In this document: positions 1 to 7,124 of the stretch, piece after piece
Layout: the number at the start of each line of letters is the position of its first letter
Position numbering within the stretch: position 1 is the stretch's first letter
DNA from: an uncultured Bacilli bacterium
GTDB lineage: Bacteria; Bacillota_I; Bacilli_A; RF39; UBA660
Direction of reading: 5' to 3'
DNA: 26,527 nt
Assembly (NCBI GenBank): GCA_947598455.1
Contig: CANQFI010000006.1
Coordinates: 1-26,527 of the forward strand
Made by a program: the position numbers and the translations under genes
Notes under the pieces: model-generated
The model's input: only the letters and a program-made list of their open reading frames with translations
Databases searched by the model: none
Told to the model about the DNA's origin: nothing

Positions 1-122
1 AATTGTGATAACATTTTCTTTAACGTTTCTTGATTATCAGTTATAAGTTTTATAATGTCAGATAATTCTTTAATTGAAATATTTAAATTTAAATTCAACG
101 TAAATGCTAAATTTTTTTCCAT
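1..122 (-). CDS. Partial small protein at left edge, function unknown (5' end only)
   Basis: Only the first 40 codons are inside the window; the gene runs off the left edge. The ATG at 122-120 is preceded by a clear GGAGG seven bases upstream, and the frame stays open to the edge. The N-terminus begins MEKNLAFTLNLNLNISIKEL and looks soluble and helical after about residue 14. I do not recognise a family. It is transcribed leftward, divergent from the non-coding RNA promoter at 147-175, and lies within the presumed mobile element, so it is probably an element gene. Confidence is for the existence of a gene, not a function. Confidence 0.6.
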   Translation of the reverse strand, partial: MEKNLAFTLNLNLNISIKELSDIIKLITDNQETLKKMLSQ

Positions 123-146
123 CTTATACCTCCATTTCTAAATAGT

Positions 147-175
147 TTGATTTTTTAACTATTGTTTGATATACT
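147..175 (+). promoter_or_regulatory. Strong extended -10 promoter for the non-coding RNA
   Basis: TTGATT at 147-152, a 17-bp spacer, then TATACT at 170-175 with the extended element TG at 167-168. Predicted start is near 182. No ribosome site or open frame follows, so it appears to drive an untranslated RNA. Confidence 0.65.
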
Positions 176-181
176 TTAATT

Positions 182-600
182 GCCCTAGACGGCAAGAAAG
201 AAGTGATCTACTTTGTTAGAAAAATTTTTATTCTTGCCCTGCCTGAATGCTTTTTAAAAAGTCTTAACAGCTATGGGGCAAGTATTTAACTTTATCTAGA
301 GAGTAAACTCGTAAGTGTTAAGTTACTGCAACTAACATGCTAGTAAATGTTAGGGATGCCAAAATCCAAAACCAAGCACTAACTTGTAAAACTAGGATGA
401 GAACTTGACTCACATTTAATAAACAAGGAACTCGCGTTTACAATTACGCATTTAAAGAAATTGCTGGTAATGGAACAACATCTGCAATAAATTCAGATAT
501 TAAATCCGTAGATTAAATCGTGTACTAGCACAATTTATTCTTCGTTAATCTTGAGTAGGAAATCATTTTATGTTTGACAACTGAATGATTTCTTTTATTT
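182..600 (+). ncRNA. Candidate structured non-coding RNA, about 420 nt
   Basis: This stretch has no ORF with a start and ribosome site on either strand until the 3' end of the gene at 563, yet it is visibly richer in G and C than its surroundings and full of short perfect stems. Seen pairs include 182-184/191-193, 233-239/276-282 (7 bp), 332-338/347-353 (7 bp), 354-357/364-367, 398-401/409-412, 434-437/446-449 and 515-522/529-536. The loop at 185-189 (CTAGA) can pair with 295-299 (TCTAG), a possible pseudoknot. It has its own promoter (147-175) and ends at a hairpin plus T-run (559-600). It is not a tmRNA: no T-loop, no encoded CCA and no plausible tag frame. Large ornate phage RNAs (ROOL, GOLLD classes) are a comparison worth making, but I cannot match it to one by eye. 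Strand and ends are inferred. Confidence 0.5.
559..600 (+). terminator. Rho-independent-type terminator of the ncRNA
   Basis: A 9-bp stem, 559-567 with 584-592 (GAAATCATT / AATGATTTC), has a 16-nt loop and is followed by TTTTATTT. The stem is AT-rich, so strength is uncertain. It overlaps the 3' end of the convergent gene at 563-775. Confidence 0.5.
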
Positions 601-775
601 TGTTTAAATCTAAATCAAATGCTATTGCAATTTCAATTAACTCGTCAGCAGTTAACTTTCTTTTACCATTTAATGATAAATTAATTTTACTTCTTGCAAT
701 TTTTGTTCTTCTCTCTATTTCATATTGAGTTATATTATTTTTTTTAAAGTATTCTTTTAAATATTTAAATAACAT
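563..775 (-). CDS. Small HTH (XRE/Cro-like) DNA-binding protein, 70 aa
   Basis: A short protein made almost entirely of one Cro/C1-type helix-turn-helix fold. Residues 14-45 carry the pattern of the family: an ITQYEIERRTKIARSKIN recognition unit followed by a G-K-R-K-LTADELIEIAIAF helix. Such proteins act as phage-style regulators binding short operators. The ATG at 775 is preceded by a weak AAGGT-type site about 12 bases upstream. It lies 40 bp downstream of the other small HTH gene (816-1037) on the same strand and is probably co-transcribed from the promoter at 1070-1098. Its 3' end overlaps the ncRNA terminator. It could be Cro, an excision regulator or another early regulator; which one cannot be told. 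Confidence 0.75.
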   Translation of the reverse strand: MLFKYLKEYFKKNNITQYEIERRTKIARSKINLSLNGKRKLTADELIEIAIAFDLDLNKIKEIIQLSNIK

Positions 776-815
776 ATTTACTCACATACCTTTTTTATTT
801 TTCTAATAATCTCAA

Positions 816-1037
816 TTAACTATCAACTGATGTACCATTTTCGTACATTGGTGGCAAAAAAATTTCATTAATTGGTTTTTTTAATATGTTTGATATTATA
901 AACATTTCCGTACTTTTAAAATCGGATTTTCCTTTTAATTTTAATCCGAATTGTTTTTCAGATATGCCTATCTTCTCAGCCAATGCTTTATTTGTTATAT
1001 TTTTTTCTATCATCAACAGCATTAATTTAGTTTGCAT
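816..1037 (-). CDS. Small Cro-like HTH protein, 73 aa, divergent from the repressor
   Basis: The first gene leftward of the switch region, opposite the repressor gene at 1179. The protein has a compact HTH: residues 12-40 (NITNKALAEKIGISEKQFGL and following K-L-K-G-K) match the XRE pattern of two helices and a recognition helix. A strong AAGGAGG lies 8 bases before the ATG at 1037. By position it is the Cro-type antirepressor of a lambda-like switch: made from the leftward promoter and expected to bind the same 19-bp operators as the repressor. One copy of that operator (832-850) lies inside its own 3' coding end. Role is inferred from layout and fold. Confidence 0.8.
   Translation of the reverse strand: MQTKLMLLMIEKNITNKALAEKIGISEKQFGLKLKGKSDFKSTEMFIISNILKKPINEIFLPPMYENGTSVDS
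832..850. promoter_or_regulatory. Operator-like 19-bp motif (third copy, inside the Cro-like gene)
   Basis: GTACCATTTTCGTACATTG here differs at one base in 19 from the intergenic copy at 1076-1094. It lies in the last codons of the 816-1037 gene, encoding the MYENGTS end. A weaker relative (12/19) is at 899-917. Likely an auxiliary repressor site. Confidence 0.55.
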
Positions 1038-1069
1038 ATTTTACCTCCTTCTGTCCTATTGACACTTTC

Positions 1070-1098
1070 ATTTTAGTACCATTATCGTACATTGTCAA
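1070..1098 (-). promoter_or_regulatory. Leftward (Cro-side) promoter with operator in its spacer
   Basis: On the minus strand: perfect TTGACA (1098-1093), a 17-bp spacer and TAAAAT (1075-1070). The 19-bp operator copy 1076-1094 fills the spacer and touches the -35, so bound repressor would block polymerase. Confidence 0.75.
1076..1094. promoter_or_regulatory. Operator copy 1 of the switch region
   Basis: GTACCATTATCGTACATTG, shared at 18/19 with 832-850 and 14/19 with 1127-1145. Its position within the leftward promoter and the neighbouring HTH genes identify it as a repressor/Cro site by inference. Confidence 0.65.
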
Positions 1099-1124
1099 CA
1101 CTTTTTTTACCACTCATTAACTTT

Positions 1125-1155
1125 TTGTTCCATTTCCGTAAATTAATGTTATAAT
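1125..1155 (+). promoter_or_regulatory. Rightward (repressor) promoter with operator copy 2
   Basis: TATAAT at 1150-1155 with extended TG at 1147-1148; the best -35 is TTGTTC at 1125-1130 with a long 19-bp spacer. Operator copy 2 (1127-1145, 14/19 matches to copy 1) covers the -35 and spacer, suggesting autoregulation of the repressor gene at 1179. Confidence 0.65.
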
Positions 1156-1178
1156 ATTCTTAAAAGAAGGAGGAAAAA

Positions 1179-2042
1179 ATGAATGTTTCAAAATATGTTG
1201 GAGAAAAAATAAGATTTTATAGAACAAATAAAAAAATAACACAACAAGAATTAGGTGAATATCTTAATACAACCTCTCAAACTATTTCTCGATATGAAAA
1301 TGGAATCTTGGAAGCTAATCATGATGTACTATTTAAGCTTGCTGAATATTTTAAAATTTCTATTAACGATTTTTTTCCACCACTTACTTTTGATGTGGAA
1401 GACAAGTTAAAAAAAATGATAATTGAAAAATTCGGTTCAGTTAGACAATTTGCTGCTCAAATTGATATTCCTTATACAACTGTCGATACAATTCTTAAAA
1501 GAGGAATAGATAATTCTAATGTGACTAATGTTATAAAAATGTGCAAGGGTTTAAATATATCGGTTGACAAATTAATTGATGAACATAAAATTATTAATAT
1601 TGGTTTTGACAATGCTGAATTAGTGAATTTAGATAGTGACATTATTAAAATAGCAGTTTATGGTACTATCAAAGCTGGAATACCAATCGAAAGTCAATCA
1701 GATATAATCGATTATGTTGAAATTCCAAGAAAGTGGACTATTGGTGGTAAAAAATTCTATGGATTAAAAATCAGTGGCGACTCAATGTTCCCTAAGTACA
1801 GTGAAAATGACGTTGTAATATTTGAACAAAATGATGATCAAGAATTATATAATGGTAAAGATGTAGCAGTGATGATCAACGGTACTGAATCAACATTTAA
1901 AAAGATATTAGTAAATGATCAAGGAATAGTACTTCAACCTTATAACACAGCTTACGATATTATGATGTTTACTAAAAAACAAGTTGAAGACTTACCAATC
2001 AAAATTGTAGGTATAGCAATAGAAAAGAGGACTAAGTTATGA
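1179..2042 (+). CDS. Self-cleaving lysogeny-type repressor: two HTH domains plus S24/LexA peptidase, 287 aa
   Basis: N-terminal Cro/C1 HTH at residues 5-60 (TQQELGEYLNTTSQTISRYE). A second HTH-like segment lies at about 75-135 (SVRQFAAQIDIPYTTVDTIL, then NISVDKL). The C-terminal peptidase S24 domain spans about 155-285. The cleavage bond Ala166-Gly167, the nucleophile Ser202 in GDSMFP and the general-base Lys241 in TFKK are all present, at spacings close to those of LexA. Family knowledge: RecA filaments trigger self-cleavage, so the element should respond to DNA damage. An AAGGAGG ribosome site precedes the ATG. Expression comes from the promoter at 1125-1155, which overlaps an operator. The stop TGA overlaps the next ATG (ATGA). 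The two-HTH arrangement is less usual than the one-HTH phage repressor. Confidence 0.9.
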   Translation: MNVSKYVGEKIRFYRTNKKITQQELGEYLNTTSQTISRYENGILEANHDVLFKLAEYFKISINDFFPPLTFDVEDKLKKMIIEKFGSVRQFAAQIDIPYTTVDTILKRGIDNSNVTNVIKMCKGLNISVDKLIDEHKIINIGFDNAELVNLDSDIIKIAVYGTIKAGIPIESQSDIIDYVEIPRKWTIGGKKFYGLKISGDSMFPKYSENDVVIFEQNDDQELYNGKDVAVMINGTESTFKKILVNDQGIVLQPYNTAYDIMMFTKKQVEDLPIKIVGIAIEKRTKL

Positions 2043-2542
2043 AAATAAAGAAATATATATTTAATATTATAATTTCGTTTTTATGCATAGGTTCAATAAC
2101 AACTTCTATAATTACTACAGTAAATACTAATAAAAAATACGAAAAATTAAAAAAAGAATCTAATATTTCTTACATAGAAAATTCTAATATAGATAATGTT
2201 GAAGATAATGAATTTGCACCTTATATTCAAGAAATAAATCAATTAAAAACTACCATTGACGAGCAACAAAAAATTATAGATGAAAATTCAAGTACTATTA
2301 ATGAATATAAATCAACAATTAATACACAATCTCAATCGATAAAAAATCTTGAAACAAAAATAAATGAATTAAATGTATCAAACAAAATTAGTGATTTAGA
2401 TACAAGAATCAAAGAAATTGAAGACTATAAAGCATTTGTAATAAACGTTGGACATAAATATAGTTCTTGGTATACAACAACTCCATTTGAACTCTGTATA
2501 AAAAGATACCCAATCTCATTAGAAGATGAACGCTGTATATAA
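2039..2542 (+). CDS. Membrane-anchored coiled-coil protein co-expressed with the repressor, 167 aa
   Basis: The start ATG overlaps the repressor stop (ATGA), so the two are translationally coupled and this protein would be made in the integrated, quiet state. One N-terminal membrane segment covers about residues 6-28; no lipobox is evident, so it is an uncleaved anchor or a signal peptide. Residues 60-130 are a heptad-patterned coiled coil rich in Gln, Ile and Asn (INQLKTTIDEQQKIIDENSS and similar). The C-terminal 30 residues contain Tyr, Trp and two Cys. No family recognised. Position suggests a conversion or superinfection-exclusion protein acting at the cell surface, which is inference only. 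Confidence 0.75.
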   Translation: MKIKKYIFNIIISFLCIGSITTSIITTVNTNKKYEKLKKESNISYIENSNIDNVEDNEFAPYIQEINQLKTTIDEQQKIIDENSSTINEYKSTINTQSQSIKNLETKINELNVSNKISDLDTRIKEIEDYKAFVINVGHKYSSWYTTTPFELCIKRYPISLEDERCI

Positions 2543-2550
2543 AAAAAAGA

Positions 2551-2657
2551 CAAGTGCAGGAACACTTGCCGAAAAGAGCATAAGCTCTATAGAAAAAAAC
2601 CAAACGCAATAGGAATTTTTTCTATGTATTTATTTTAACATAGATTAAGCTCCTATT
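2551..2657 (+). repeat. Cluster of inverted repeats before the integrase gene
   Basis: Four perfect stems lie in the 134-bp gap: 2551-2556/2563-2568 (CAAGTG/CACTTG), 2575-2579/2584-2588 (AGAGC/GCTCT), and an outer stem 2608-2614/2651-2657 (AATAGGA/TCCTATT) enclosing 2622-2627/2638-2643 (CTATGT/ACATAG). The last ends just before the integrase ribosome site AAGGAG (2664-2669). It may be a leader that modulates integrase expression or a set of protein-binding sites. Confidence 0.45.
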
Positions 2658-2676
2658 CAAGATAAGGAGTGATAAA

Positions 2677-3774
2677 ATGACAGTATATAAATCAAAAAAA
2701 GCCACAAAAGATGGCAGACAATATTTTTTTAGAATAAAGTACAAAGATATTTATGGAATTTCACATGACTATACTTCACGTAAATATAAAAAAGAAAAAG
2801 ATGCTAAAGATGAAGAAGCTTTATATAGAATTAAGATAGCTGAAAATAAAGTTCATACCAGTACTATAACGATTGAACAAGCTTTTACAGAATATTTAGC
2901 TCAAGAAAAGAATAATCTAAAAAAACAAACAATTAAAAAAATTGAAAATCTTTTTACTCATTTAAAATCAATTGAGAAATACAAAATAAATGATATTAAT
3001 TTAAATATATATAAAAAGTGGTATCTAGAATTAGAAAACTCCCCTTTTTCAGTACATCATAAAAATAAAATATTAGGATTGTTTAAAAGGATCATCAAGT
3101 ACTCTAGCCTATATTATAATACGAGTGATTCTATTATAAAATTCGTAAACAACTTTAAAGAAGTTGGAGCAATAAAAAAAGAAATGGAATTCTTTACTTA
3201 TGAAGAATATTTAAAATTTGATAGTGTTATAACAGATCATGATTGGCATACTTTTTTTGAGATACTCTATTTCTTAGGTTTAAGACAAGGAGAATGTACA
3301 GCTTTAAACTGGAACGATATAGACTTCGAAAAGGGAACAATAAGAATTAATAAAAGTTTAACTACCAAAATAAAAGGCGAAGAATGGACAATATCAAGTC
3401 CTAAAACAAAAAATAGTATTAGAACCTTACCTTTAACAAAAAATATCTTAAATGATTTAAAAAGCATATATAACGAAGTATCAAAATATAAAGATTTTAA
3501 AAAAGAATGGTTTATATTTGGCAATACTATACCATTCAAGGAAAACAGAATACAATTAAGAAAAAATAAATATTGCAAGTTAGCAGAAGTGAAGCAAATA
3601 AGAGTTCACGACTTTAGGCATAGTTGTGCATCTCTATTGATCAATAAAGGAGCTAACATTACATTAGTAAGTAAATATTTGGGACATTCAAATATAAGTA
3701 TTACATTAAATACTTATACTCATCTATATAAAAATCAATTAACTGAAATGACTGAAATTTTAAATAATTTATAA
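2677..3774 (+). CDS. int: Tyrosine recombinase (phage/ICE integrase), 365 aa
   Basis: Catalyses site-specific integration and excision of the element. Residues 1-52 form a basic arm-binding domain (KATKDGRQYFFRIKYKD). Residues 63-165 are the SAM-like core-binding domain and 172-365 the catalytic domain. All active-site residues can be read: Arg203 in LGLRQGE, Lys243 in SPKTKNS, His311 and Arg314 in HDFRH, His337 in LGHSN and Tyr347 in NTYTHL. AAGGAG lies 7 bases before the ATG. It sits 77 bp from the 3' end of a tRNA gene in the opposite orientation, the usual position next to attR/attL. Length is normal for Tn916/phage-type integrases. Confidence 0.95.
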   Translation: MTVYKSKKATKDGRQYFFRIKYKDIYGISHDYTSRKYKKEKDAKDEEALYRIKIAENKVHTSTITIEQAFTEYLAQEKNNLKKQTIKKIENLFTHLKSIEKYKINDINLNIYKKWYLELENSPFSVHHKNKILGLFKRIIKYSSLYYNTSDSIIKFVNNFKEVGAIKKEMEFFTYEEYLKFDSVITDHDWHTFFEILYFLGLRQGECTALNWNDIDFEKGTIRINKSLTTKIKGEEWTISSPKTKNSIRTLPLTKNILNDLKSIYNEVSKYKDFKKEWFIFGNTIPFKENRIQLRKNKYCKLAEVKQIRVHDFRHSCASLLINKGANITLVSKYLGHSNISITLNTYTHLYKNQLTEMTEILNNL

Positions 3775-3777
3775 AAT

Positions 3778-3798
3778 GTGTGTTTAAAGGTGTGTTTA
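3778..3798 (+). repeat. Two 9-bp direct repeats just after the integrase gene
   Basis: GTGTGTTTA occurs at 3778-3786 and again at 3790-3798, a 12-bp period, between the integrase stop and the tRNA att site. Direct repeats in this place are commonly integrase arm or excisionase sites; that role is inferred. Confidence 0.45.
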
Positions 3799-3816
3799 GA
3801 ATTATTTAGGCAATTA

Positions 3817-3840
3817 AAAAAGCCCTAAAATAAGGCTTTT
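3817..3840 (-). terminator. Bidirectional terminator between integrase and tRNA
   Basis: AAAAGCC (3818-3824) pairs with GGCTTTT (3834-3840) across a 9-nt loop. Read on the minus strand the hairpin is followed by six T, so it best serves the tRNA transcript; on the plus strand it may also end integrase transcription. Confidence 0.65.
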
Positions 3841-3851
3841 ATAAGTATAAA

Positions 3852-3928
3852 TGGTGGACCTCGTAGGACTCGAACCTACGACCGCCCGGTTATGAGCCGG
3901 ATGCTCTAACCAACTGAGCTAGAGGTCC
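3852..3928 (-). tRNA. tRNA with CAU anticodon, most like tRNA-Ile2 (k2CAU); possibly tRNA-Met
   Basis: A 77-nt cloverleaf with encoded CCA (3854-3852). The 7-bp acceptor stem is GGACCTC/GAGGTCC, the anticodon CAT is at 3894-3892, and the T-arm has GGTTCGAGTCC. The acceptor, D-arm and CTCATAACCG loop resemble the Bacillus Ile2 tRNA, whose CAU anticodon is changed by TilS (lysidine) to read AUA, more than the elongator Met tRNA. The 3' end faces the integrase and is the probable attachment site. Confidence 0.93.
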
Positions 3929-3940
3929 ATCGACCATTTA

Positions 3941-3969
3941 ATAATAACACAAACTTCCAATTCTTGCAA
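3941..3969 (-). promoter_or_regulatory. tRNA promoter
   Basis: On the minus strand: TTGCAA (3969-3964), 17-bp spacer, TATTAT (3946-3941). The start falls about 5-7 nt before the mature tRNA 5' end. Confidence 0.65.
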
Positions 3970-3979
3970 CAATATTTTT

Positions 3980-4735
3980 TTAAAAGATTACTATATAAGC
4001 AAAAAATACAATTAATAAAACAAATACTACATCAACAAAAATGAAATTTCCTTTCTTATCAAATTCTTTACCACATAACTTTGTAACAAATATAAACAAT
4101 GCATAAAATAAATTAAATATCACAAATCCAATTAAAGAAACAGCTAAACATATCGTACCAGCATTTAAACTAGTTATATTATTAAATGCTTGTAAACTAA
4201 AACTTATTCCACTTACCATCCCAATTGTTATTGCAACAAATATCGCCACAATAGATACAATATCTATCATATTTTTATCATATCTATTTTTTAAATCTTT
4301 AACTTTATTATCTAATTTAACAAAATCTTCATTACTACGATCAAATACATCTTTTAAAAGTCTTATTTTAAAGCCATCACTAACCATATTCTTAGTACTA
4401 ATATTAGCTTTTTCTATTCTATCCATCGTATCATAGTAATTATACATACTTACTAAATCTTCACGATGAACTTCCATCTCAATTGATTTAAGCATATTAT
4501 CATAAATATTATCTTCAATTAAAATAGACTCACAATAATAACATATCTTCTTTAAATTAGCTGTAAACATTCCATTATCATTCTTATAATATTCATAAAT
4601 GAATCTTTCTCTAGCATCATTATCTTTTAAAAAATAAAGAAGATCAAAAGCAACTATAAAACAAACCACATTAGTCCCATTTCCTCCGTTATCCAACCTC
4701 TTTATCTTTTCTAACATATCTTCAAGATTCATCAT
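3980..4735 (-). CDS. Unknown protein with soluble N-terminal half and three C-terminal membrane helices, 251 aa
   Basis: Residues 1-150 are soluble and mainly helical with a charged stretch (DFVKLDNKVKDLKNRYDKN) before the membrane. Hydrophobic helices lie at about 156-182, 192-218 and 231-250, the last reaching the C-terminus. Four Cys (25, 65, 68 and 197) are visible in the N-half and helix 2, with the CYYC pair notable. There are two adjacent ATG codons (4735 and 4732); GGGAAG lies about 5 and 8 bases upstream. An extended -10 (TGTTATACT) is at 4762-4754. I do not recognise the family. A soluble domain followed by a helical bundle is also the plan of some pore-forming defence effectors, and it sits next to an integration site, but nothing in the sequence proves that. 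Confidence 0.75.
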   Translation of the reverse strand: MMNLEDMLEKIKRLDNGGNGTNVVCFIVAFDLLYFLKDNDARERFIYEYYKNDNGMFTANLKKICYYCESILIEDNIYDNMLKSIEMEVHREDLVSMYNYYDTMDRIEKANISTKNMVSDGFKIRLLKDVFDRSNEDFVKLDNKVKDLKNRYDKNMIDIVSIVAIFVAITIGMVSGISFSLQAFNNITSLNAGTICLAVSLIGFVIFNLFYALFIFVTKLCGKEFDKKGNFIFVDVVFVLLIVFFAYIVIF

Positions 4736-4830
4736 ATCACTTCCCTACAATTTAGTATAACATAAAATAAATAATTAAAATTATTATATTTTACATTAAG
4801 AAACCTCACTATTTCTTTTTCTTGTTTCAT
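4732..4830 (-). CDS. Possible short upstream ORF, 32 aa, overlapping the next start
   Basis: An ATG at 4830 is preceded by a strong GGAGGAGG, and the frame runs 32 codons to a TGA at 4734-4732 that overlaps the ATGATG start of the 251-aa gene. The strong ribosome site and exact coupling favour translation. Against it, the second half (NVKYNNFNYLFYVILN) also contains the -10 element of the downstream gene and looks like AT-rich intergenic DNA. It may be a leader peptide or a chance frame. Confidence 0.35.
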   Translation of the reverse strand: MKQEKEIVRFLNVKYNNFNYLFYVILNCREVI

Positions 4831-5020
4831 CAGAGTATCCTCCTCCACAAGCCTAAATTCCGATGATCACCATCATATATTTTTTTCTTTAATCTACAAA
4901 AAATAATTTTTTAGTCCCTAACATACATTATAATTTTTCTCCATAAAACAATTATATAATAGCAAACTAGTGTTCATCAATGTTTTTTTTACATTTTCGA
5001 GAACTTTCCTATAACATAAA
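4831..5020. other. Intergenic region with a candidate leftward promoter, otherwise unexplained
   Basis: Minus-strand TATAAT at 4932-4927 has no good -35. A partial palindrome around the ATGATGGTGATCAT segment (about 4862-4878) lies upstream of the GGAGGAGG. I see no complete gene, tRNA or riboswitch consensus. A minus-strand frame just right of the short ORF, ending CGGGYSDETRKRNSEVS at about 4803, is blocked by a stop and looks like either chance or a gene scar. Confidence 0.3.
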
Positions 5021-5046
5021 ATAAAAAGTACCAAAAGGTACTTTAT
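5021..5046 (-). terminator. Terminator of the seven-gene unit
   Basis: AAAGTACC/GGTACTTT (5037-5044 with 5025-5032, loop of four) is followed on the minus strand by TTATTTTA. The stem includes the stop codon of the 5043-5291 gene. Confidence 0.8.
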
Positions 5047-5291
5047 AAAAAATGTGCTAAATCTTCCTTTATATAAATAATATAAATAAATAATAAATCA
5101 TAATAATCTTCTTCAAACAAAATATCCTTATTATTTATAAATATTGAACTTTTTAAAGTATCAATTTCAATATTTCTTTTCTTACATATATCCTCTAAAG
5201 TATCAAGTAATTCTTTTACTTCTTTAAGTAAAATATCTCTTTTAGAATCAATAGACAATTCTTTATATTTTAAAATAAAATTTTCTAACAC
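5043..5291 (-). CDS. Small acidic helical protein, unknown, 82 aa, last gene of the unit
   Basis: The start is a GTG at 5291 with GGTGA close upstream; an in-frame stop lies just before, so no longer form exists. Residues 1-45 form amphipathic helices rich in Lys and Glu; residues 60-80 are acidic and aromatic (EEDYYDLLFIYIIYIKEDL). No membrane segment is certain, though the second helix is hydrophobic. It lies 12 nt after the stop of the 606-aa gene and shares its transcript, so it may be a partner of that protein. No family recognised. Confidence 0.7.
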   Translation of the reverse strand: MLENFILKYKELSIDSKRDILLKEVKELLDTLEDICKKRNIEIDTLKSSIFINNKDILFEEDYYDLLFIYIIYIKEDLAHFL

Positions 5292-5303
5292 TTTATCACC
5301 ATC

Positions 5304-7124
5304 TTAATTCTTAACATATCGAACCCATTTACTTATTTCCTTAAATTCATTTCTTGCTTTTAAGAATTCATCATACTTTTTTCGATTAAAAGCTTCATCT
5401 GCTTCGTTATTAATAAATAATGCTTGTTCATTTAAATATCCATAACAAATATCACGATATTTTGTAATTACATCATTTGGGTCAACTATCTCTAATTTCA
5501 TATTATTATATAATTCTTTTACTACAAACTCTTGAGCTGCCTTTAATAAATAATTTTTTTCCTTTTCTAAAGTGAAATCTAAATCCCCAAAAATTTTTGT
5601 TGAAAAATCAAAAGTACTAATTTTATACTTTATATTTTCATAAAGATTAATTAATTCATCATTACTTAACCCATCTGCCATAACATGTAAATCATAATTT
5701 CTTGTATCATAATTATTAAACAAATCAACATTTACTAAATCTGTTATGCAATGTTCCAATATAAAATCAAGTTTTCTTTTTAATACATTACTTTTTATCA
5801 TTTCTATATTAGGCAAAGGTCCATGATAATTACATTCAATTTTACGCGTATTTAACTCTTTTGCGTACTGTTCAATAAATTCGTTATCATGTCTATTAAT
5901 CAAAAAGTCAAAATCATTTTTAGCATTTTGATAAGCATTAAGTAAATATATTGGATTATATAAATCATATATTTTAATTAGAAGAGCGCTATTAACATCA
6001 TTATTTCTCATTAAATCAAGCGAATGACTACTATCAAAAGTTACTTTTTCAAATATTTGATTAGCTAAATCTCTAGCTAATCCATATAATTCAATCGCTC
6101 TATCTACATAATCTTTTATTTTACTATCTTTTGTTAAACTACTTTTATATCTTAAATCAAAATAATTATTTATTAAATTTTCTTTAAATTTAATGGTATA
6201 TGACGCATTTTCCGTATTAAATTTAACATAACTTCCATTTTCATAATTCATCATTAAATTTTCTTTTTCATTAACTAACATTTCAACTATTTCGCAAAAT
6301 TTTTGATATGTTATATTATTTGTTTTATTAAACATTTCTTTTAAAGCAATATCATTTTTATTATCATTATAAATTTTATCTATATAACTCGTAATAATAT
6401 CTTTTATATCACTCATCCAATCATCAAACTTATATTTATAAGCAATTTCCATCTGCTCTTTTATTACTTCATAATCATCACTATATCTAGCTTTTCCTTC
6501 TAATCTTTTATATAAATGTTCACATACCAAAACAATTCTTTTAGTTCTATTATAATAATCATTATAAGACTCATTATATAACGGCTTTATACTTAATATA
6601 CTATAAGCTTTTTTTATAAACTTTTCATACAGAAAGCAATTATCTCTACTCTCTAATAATTTAATAAAATATTCCAAACTACTTACTTTCTTAGCATCCT
6701 CTCTAATATTCTTTTTTTCCAAAGAAGTAAATCTTGGAATCATATTATTATTTATATAGTTTCCTTTCTTATCAATTTTATAATCTTCATAAAAGGAATC
6801 AACTATAATAATTGGTAATTCTTCTAAAGTTTTCGTAACATCATTGCATTTTGTTTTATATAACAAATAAAAGTATTCAAAAATATCATTATTATATTCC
6901 ACAATTTTTCCCAAATTATATTTTAATCTCTTCTTTAATCTATTTAATTTAATATTATAATAATTAACATTATTTTTAGGTGTTGTTCTTATTGTTAAAA
7001 CAATACTCCTAATCTTTCTAATATTTCGTTCAACATTATAATAATTAACAGATGAATTATTTTTATAAACTATCTCATTATAAAAAAACTTAAAAACAGA
7101 GAAATTATTTTGATCTTTTCCCAT
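5304..7124 (-). CDS. Large soluble, Tyr/Asn/Lys-rich helical protein of unknown function, 606 aa
   Basis: I place the start at the ATG at 7124, preceded by AGGTG at a proper distance; the in-frame GTG nine bases earlier is part of that ribosome site. No signal peptide, membrane helix, nucleotide-binding loop or catalytic motif can be seen. The protein reads as a long series of helices with short coiled coils (LKKRLKYNLGKIVEYNNDIF near residue 65, EKNYLLKAAQEFV near 520) and only a few Cys. It could be a scaffold or a divergent repeat protein. The previous gene's stop is separated from this ATG by one base, so the two are translationally coupled; the next gene follows after 12 nt. Confidence 0.8.
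   Translation of the reverse strand: MGKDQNNFSVFKFFYNEIVYKNNSSVNYYNVERNIRKIRSIVLTIRTTPKNNVNYYNIKLNRLKKRLKYNLGKIVEYNNDIFEYFYLLYKTKCNDVTKTLEELPIIIVDSFYEDYKIDKKGNYINNNMIPRFTSLEKKNIREDAKKVSSLEYFIKLLESRDNCFLYEKFIKKAYSILSIKPLYNESYNDYYNRTKRIVLVCEHLYKRLEGKARYSDDYEVIKEQMEIAYKYKFDDWMSDIKDIITSYIDKIYNDNKNDIALKEMFNKTNNITYQKFCEIVEMLVNEKENLMMNYENGSYVKFNTENASYTIKFKENLINNYFDLRYKSSLTKDSKIKDYVDRAIELYGLARDLANQIFEKVTFDSSHSLDLMRNNDVNSALLIKIYDLYNPIYLLNAYQNAKNDFDFLINRHDNEFIEQYAKELNTRKIECNYHGPLPNIEMIKSNVLKRKLDFILEHCITDLVNVDLFNNYDTRNYDLHVMADGLSNDELINLYENIKYKISTFDFSTKIFGDLDFTLEKEKNYLLKAAQEFVVKELYNNMKLEIVDPNDVITKYRDICYGYLNEQALFINNEADEAFNRKKYDEFLKARNEFKEISKWVRYVKN

Follow-up and report, generated by a model that had tools for sequence, protein, structure and literature searches.

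A very probable structured RNA gene in the lysogeny module of a prophage-like element, with a core likely related to PGK RNA

PGK RNA, one of the 2017 candidate RNAs, was reportedly placed upstream of the phosphoglycerate kinase gene, pgk, and its Rfam family (RF03040) carries the type 'Cis-reg'. Discussion of PGK RNA was not found in the literature searched. Among phages, P4 CI and P1 c4 are immunity or antisense RNAs. ROOL (659 nt) and GOLLD (more than 800 nt) are described as large structured RNAs of prophages and phages that contain pseudoknots and kissing loops and whose function is unknown (PMC12286853). Here, we analysed a stretch of 26,527 nt from an uncultured Bacilli bacterium (the window), and we are highly confident that a region near its start is a structured RNA gene. 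A preliminary description had proposed that 147..600 is transcribed independently into a large structured RNA, and the proposal is borne out by a promoter, a terminator, the lack of an ORF of at least 40 aa and covariation in homologues. The extent needed adjustment: the RNA starts near 180, not at 147, and its 3' end lies inside an HTH gene at 563-775(-).

The promoter (147..175, plus strand) consists of the -35 element TTGATT (147-152), a 17 bp spacer and TATACT (170-175) with TGn ahead of it, giving the extended -10 TGATATACT that had been described at this end. Taken alone it is not above chance, since 21 promoter-like sites were found in 3 kb against a shuffle mean of 21.7. The stretch or its -10 recurs in homologous phages. 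GATATACTTTAA was observed at the equivalent position in L001, L009, L010, L031, L057 and L058, and a TTTGATTTTCTAA-like sequence lies upstream of it in all of these except L001; in L005, L007 and L056 the -10 is TATAAT instead. The hairpin and T-run noted at the other end form an intrinsic terminator (559..601, plus strand), in which a stem of nine pairs, GAAATCATT (559-567) with AATGATTTC (584-592), is followed by the T-rich tail TTTTATTTT. The stem and T-run are kept in most homologues in the alignment. A consensus terminator scan did not list this hairpin, whose loop exceeds the length that the scan allows. With the 5' end placed from the promoter and the 3' end from the terminator, the predicted RNA spans 180..601 on the plus strand (~420 nt). 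As had been stated, the region lacks an ORF: none of at least 40 aa overlaps 182-560 on either strand.

Folding of 176-601(+) gave -95.5 kcal/mol compared to -79.6 +/- 5.5 kcal/mol in shuffles (z -2.9; 1 of 100 as good). Because the minus strand folds nearly as well (z -2.6; 0 of 100 shuffles as good), folding energy is uninformative on strand. An RNA on the minus strand was rejected, as the promoter, the terminator and the orientation of PGK RNA are all plus. The 18 G.U versus 1 A.C cells in the alignment agree with the plus strand, the strands for this count having been picked by the analyst. The higher G/C content claimed for the region holds against the DNA immediately to its right (0.30-0.34 in 201-600 versus 0.20-0.26) and fails against parts of the repressor gene (0.31-0.32).

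Six homologues were found besides the window, three on IMG/VR phage contigs (L001, L005 and L031) and three in genomes. L001, a clear RNA homologue, was identified by an IMG/VR scan with the repressor; L005, L031 and L007, the latter from a Bacilli MAG of goat rectum, were added by pattern scans, and G008 (L009/L051) and G184 (L010/L052) by whole-genome searches around the L007 MAG. A DNA query gave three real matches in 243 genomes (G001, G008 and G184) and four judged to be chance. With a core covariance model, R1 (117 positions; window core 262-379), strong matches were obtained in 2 of 385 genomes at the level of the order, 2 of 395 for the class, 2 of 386 for the family of G184 and 1 of 392 for the phylum, in genome sets that overlap; the single match in the phylum is G001 itself. 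Strong core-model matches are few, and the RNA is therefore rare and accessory. A distant BLASTN search with the RNA found nothing among 50,697 phage records, and when window 1-3900 was compared with phages and plasmids, only the tRNA-Met region appeared among the matches listed (20 of 25). L002 and L003 carry related phage genes and gave no core-model match. Several candidates were judged to be chance, namely L006, which does not align to the RNA, L012-L015, which lie in coding-like sequence, and L029, L030, L032 and L033.

To assess covariation, a seven-sequence alignment (A7; the window and six homologues) was scored over seven helices and 45 pairs. In A7, 92.3% of cells were paired and 22 of 45 pairs had changes on both sides, whereas shuffles had a mean of 10.0 double-change pairs and 0 of 500 reached 22. 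The covariation score was 0.388 versus 0.157, and a control with slid partners gave at most 6 double-change pairs. The slid control flatters the structure because the structure was drawn from the same sequences, most helices having been chosen after viewing them; this after-the-fact choice is not the sole basis of the shuffle comparison or of the loop-loop result. The core by itself had double changes in 5 of 21 pairs, and 1 of 500 shuffles was as high. The covariation that was to be looked for is thus strong.

The clearest element is a kissing interaction between two hairpin loops across ~180 nt. Hairpin H3 (332-338 with 347-353, loop 339-346) was 100% paired with double changes in 5 of 7 pairs. 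Hairpin H8 (515..536) carries the loop 523-529 that kisses 339-345 of the H3 loop; its own helix was 75.9% paired with double changes in 6 of 8 pairs, and a one-position misregister of L009 and L010 in the alignment explains part of the unpaired cells. The H3:H8 contact was 91.1% paired with double changes in 7 of 8 pairs. The loops are GCTAGTAA/GTACTAGC in the window, TCTAACTG/CTAGTTAGAA in L001, GCTAACAC/GTGTTAGA in L005, GCAGATCC/TTGGATCTGCAT in L007 and ACTAGTAAT/TTTACTAGG in L009. All seven sequences have complements of 7-8 nt within their own loop pair, the true partnering was the best of 120 permutations among five loop classes, and 20000 letter shuffles never rose above 26 compared to 36 observed. 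Upstream of H3, helix P2 (263-269 with 316-322; 100% paired, double changes in 2 of 7 pairs) forms the PGK-like core and encloses an invariant GAG..CTC hairpin (299-310; 0 of 3 double changes). Helix B:C (191..238) pairs GGCAAG (191-196) with CTTGCC (233-238), with 95.2% of cells paired and double changes in 2 of 6 pairs. Collectively, the comparison shows a predicted fold of P2, H3 and H8 in which the H3:H8 contact connects the central part of the RNA with its 3' end.

The 5' end may also be tied in. Segment A, TTGCCC (180-185), can pair either with segment D, GGGCAA (276-281), or locally with B. The A:D pairing has a parallel at the 5' end of PGK-type RNAs, and by analogy TTGCCC may pair with GGGCAA in the window RNA. 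A:D was paired in 90.5% of cells with double changes in 0 of 6 pairs, the changes in the phage set being one-sided only. A:B/C:D is an alternative to A:D, with C:D an equal alternative. Between H3 and H8, a possible H-type pseudoknot at 398..427 combines TGAG/CTCA (398-401, 409-412) with CTTG/CAAG (404-407, 424-427), its strands having been traced by eye in seven homologues. A possible second pseudoknot at 434..463 (GCG/CGC with CAATT/AATTG, also by eye) is weak in L031, and in L001 and L005 a different hairpin takes its place. Both candidate pseudoknots have different letters in homologues, as judged by eye. The alignment also contains a conserved block, CTGGTAATGGA..CATCTG (464..484). A GGAT/ATCC hairpin after H3 was rejected, as it is broken in L001, L005 and L031.

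Loop-loop double changes 180 nt apart are unexpected from coding sequence, which bears on the alternative of a hidden small protein, encoded on one strand or the other, in place of an RNA. As for coding frames, the window copy has none of at least 40 aa, and a few homologues have antisense ORFs of 51-95 aa over or near the RNA that are not common to the window. Those over the RNA in L009, L010 and L005 (60-78 aa), together with a short frame near the 5' end that by eye is similar in L007, L009 and L010, speak for a protein, which we nevertheless consider highly improbable. A conserved 5' leader peptide was rejected, as its start and frame are not common to the window, L001 and L031 (by eye).

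We compared the region with known RNA families. As the preliminary description had suggested, all Rfam models were searched, and none reached its gathering score in the RNA region; ROOL, GOLLD, OLE, raiA, HEARO and other Rfam RNA genes gave no covariance-model match there. In the whole window only T-box and tRNA reach gathering. The T-box leader (RF00230; 26262-26446, minus strand) lies upstream of HD-domain-like and valyl-tRNA synthetase-like genes, named from their translations. A divergent tmRNA, RNase P or 6S RNA was rejected, with no match in the window and with hosts that mostly have their own copies: among 13 genomes tried, tmRNA was over the cut-off in 10, RNase P b in 12 and 6S in 6 (10 with any match). 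G001 has two tmRNA matches over the cut-off, at C4:61645-62026 and C17:3473-3821. At loose settings, window 1-1200 gave only four weak matches, of which the best was PGK RNA (RF03040) at 256-354 with 33.3 bits and E 0.072, below the gathering score of 50.8.

In 385 genomes, R1 gave, beside the strong matches, 11 second-tier matches at 28.8-35.9 bits. Ten of these 11 loci are PGK RNA at the Rfam gathering score, and the kissing loop is present in the eleventh, L018. In the reverse search, RF03040 was over its cut-off in 12 of 117 genomes; below the cut-off it matched the phage-type RNA of G008 (43.5 bits) and G083 (42.6 bits), and it gave no match in 14 control genomes. Similarity between the models of the window-type core and RF03040 was thus found in both directions. 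The window RNA also has the pairing of the H3 loop with a loop near the 3' end, a feature outside the Rfam model. Its next gene is the HTH gene on the other strand, so the position upstream of pgk does not apply. From these sequence comparisons, the RNA core is very likely related to PGK RNA. Judged against Rfam 15 and the literature searches, the suggestion of a new or rare class stands as to rarity; given the kinship of its core with PGK RNA, the RNA is not entirely novel.

PGK-type loci elsewhere show a similar contact. In 21 of 22 loci (24 given minus two flagged duplicates), the loop of the T-tailed hairpin is complementary over 6-8 nt to the H3 loop. In L018 and L045 the letters differ but still match, and L047 lacks the contact. 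Matches occurred in 5 of 141 control windows, and a recheck over 23 loci, with L049 left out, listed three distinct control matches, two of them neighbouring RNA copies of the same locus. Under stricter hairpin rules the contact was found in 14 of 21 loci. A TTGACA promoter match lies upstream of the RNA in 18 of 23 loci. In 14 of 23, the sequence right after the promoter is complementary, in several letter sets, to a segment of the P2 loop, which would be a pseudoknot tying the RNA 5' end; nine loci have no clear 5'-end pairing. L041 (G093:C62) has tandem PGK-type copies ~315 nt apart (480, 1578 and 1892 in the RNA sense), of which RF03040 reports two and the loop motif suggests a third. In L019, a skipping-rope RNA (RF02924; 1801-1911) lies just downstream of the PGK-type RNA, before a PBECR3 nuclease-like ORF.

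The neighbours of these loci bear on whether the RNA is a cis-acting leader, an attenuator or riboswitch-like element, as the Rfam type of PGK RNA implies. The next ORF is co-oriented in 22 of 23 PGK-type loci, which fits cis-regulation there, and the kiss involves the terminator hairpin itself in these RNAs and could control termination. Upstream ORFs are likewise co-oriented in 19 of 22 loci. However, the next genes differ: pgk follows in 1 of 18 loci scanned, and others are SpoIVA, rubrerythrin, HU, glycosyltransferase 28, PPIase, PBECR3 nuclease, LPG synthase and unknowns. A promoter-like match, by a loose pattern, separates the terminator from the next ORF in 12 of 23. In the window and four homologues, the terminator is followed by an opposite-strand gene. 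We regard a cis-acting leader as very unlikely.

The window RNA belongs to the lysogeny module of a prophage-like element, the end of which makes up the first 3.85 kb of the window. Next to the RNA, the small HTH protein (563..775, minus strand) is kept in 5 of 7 loci. It is followed by a Cro-like HTH protein (816..1037, minus strand), a CI/S24 repressor (1179..2042, plus strand) and a tyrosine integrase (2677..3774, plus strand) that adjoins tRNA-Met (3852-3928, minus strand). Two terminator-like hairpins, at 2549-2570 and 2701-2715 (-), lie between an ORF at 2039-2542 and the integrase. TACCATTNTCGTACA repeats at 833, 1077 and 1128, the last with three mismatches, look like repressor operators. 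In the window, L001, G008, G184 and L031, the RNA lies between the small HTH gene and opposite-strand early genes; the HTH genes of these loci have 65-78% identity to that of the window, and the RNA terminator overlaps the HTH gene 3' end. In L005, the RNA has a minus-strand HTH gene on one side and a plus-strand repressor on the other. The phage modules of L051, L052, L031 and L005 contain integrases or recombinases, HTH/S24 repressors and early-gene domains (DnaB_2, DUF6291). The mobile element that had been described is phage-like rather than an ICE, with an integrase, an S24 repressor, Cro-like proteins and, in homologues, replication-type early genes. The RNA of L007 precedes no phage module: directly after it, at 3200-5452, are a type II restriction enzyme (NgoFVII-type C-terminal domain) and a C5 methyltransferase.

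An IMG/VR scan with the HTH alignment gave five loci, two already known and three new (L056, L057 and L058). The new loci have a similar promoter and HTH-overlapping terminator in the same place with different sequence between, and their predicted slot transcripts of ~200-330 nt adjoin the HTH match. None had a core-model match or an Rfam match up to E 2. By eye, L056 contains GAGAAAGAAAACTC, an H3 loop CTTTCAA and a later TTGAAAG, and still reads as a distant member; L057 and L058 look unrelated. The L057 RNA has a strong predicted fold (a raw energy of -62.5 kcal/mol for 221 nt). In several related phages, this promoter-terminator slot next to the HTH gene is occupied by other RNAs and so behaves like an exchangeable RNA cassette; that the slot is such a cassette of the lysogeny module is supported but not proven.

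These observations are consistent with a stand-alone plus-strand gene that would give a ~420-nt structured RNA from its own promoter and terminator. The RNA would be made in the lysogen, because it shares its strand with the repressor and integrase and because an operator pattern search, which overall barely beats chance (7 matches versus 3.2 in shuffles), revealed no CI-type operator at the RNA promoter. It may then act as a compact RNA or RNA-protein particle and serve the prophage or lysogen, for example against competing phages. We favour, as a fairly probable overall explanation, a stand-alone PGK-related RNA gene in an exchangeable cassette that acts in trans in the lysogen. Action in trans, taken separately, is somewhat probable; a role in immunity or defence is a doubtful proposal. 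A still wider reading would place the RNAs of phages and those of PGK type in a single superfamily of stand-alone RNA particles with a 5' pseudoknot and a 3' kiss, which temperate phages of uncultured Bacilli carry in a dedicated, swappable lysogeny slot for trans-acting immunity or counter-defence; as a whole, it is rather unlikely.

The main rival to a trans-acting lysogeny-strand RNA is an antisense regulator that would pair with the early-operon transcript, which crosses this DNA on the opposite strand, and damp lytic genes in the lysogen. Its structure would give stability and loop-loop recognition, as structure does in plasmid antisense RNAs. Such pairing fits 5 of 7 loci (window, L001, L009/G008, L010/G184 and L031), where minus-sense early genes flank the RNA on both sides, although the five share the HTH neighbour and are not independent. 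Slot contents vary between phages, as specificity determinants would. In contrast, the fold is common to PGK-type RNAs at ordinary chromosomal sites and to L007, and intramolecular kissing consumes the loops needed for antisense pairing. We judge antisense regulation to be unlikely and retain the trans-acting RNA as the preferred reading.

Through this locus, a little-studied RNA family would gain a phage-borne branch with strong covariation. The locus also suggests that the Rfam PGK RNA belongs to a larger RNA gene and is not a pgk regulator. If true, a fixed slot with differing RNAs would be the RNA counterpart of prophage accessory-gene slots. The class could also serve as a compact test object for RNAs with both ends tied into a tertiary fold.

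Compared with PGK RNA, the window RNA has the same P2 enclosing a GAG..CTC hairpin, then an H3 that pairs with the loop of a 3' hairpin, a 5' end with a possible pairing partner inside the P2 loop and, as in most copies, a flanking promoter and terminator. It differs in its length of ~420 nt, its extra conserved blocks and possible pseudoknots, its phage location and its H3 loop, which kisses the separate hairpin H8 instead of the terminator. Like P4 CI and P1 c4, it is a non-coding RNA in a temperate-phage control region whose contents vary between relatives; unlike them, it has a conserved tertiary fold common to chromosomal RNAs. With ROOL and GOLLD it shares the character of a structured phage or prophage RNA with pseudoknots, here putative, and kissing loops, and it differs in being shorter, in having no Rfam match and in its place in the lysogeny module.
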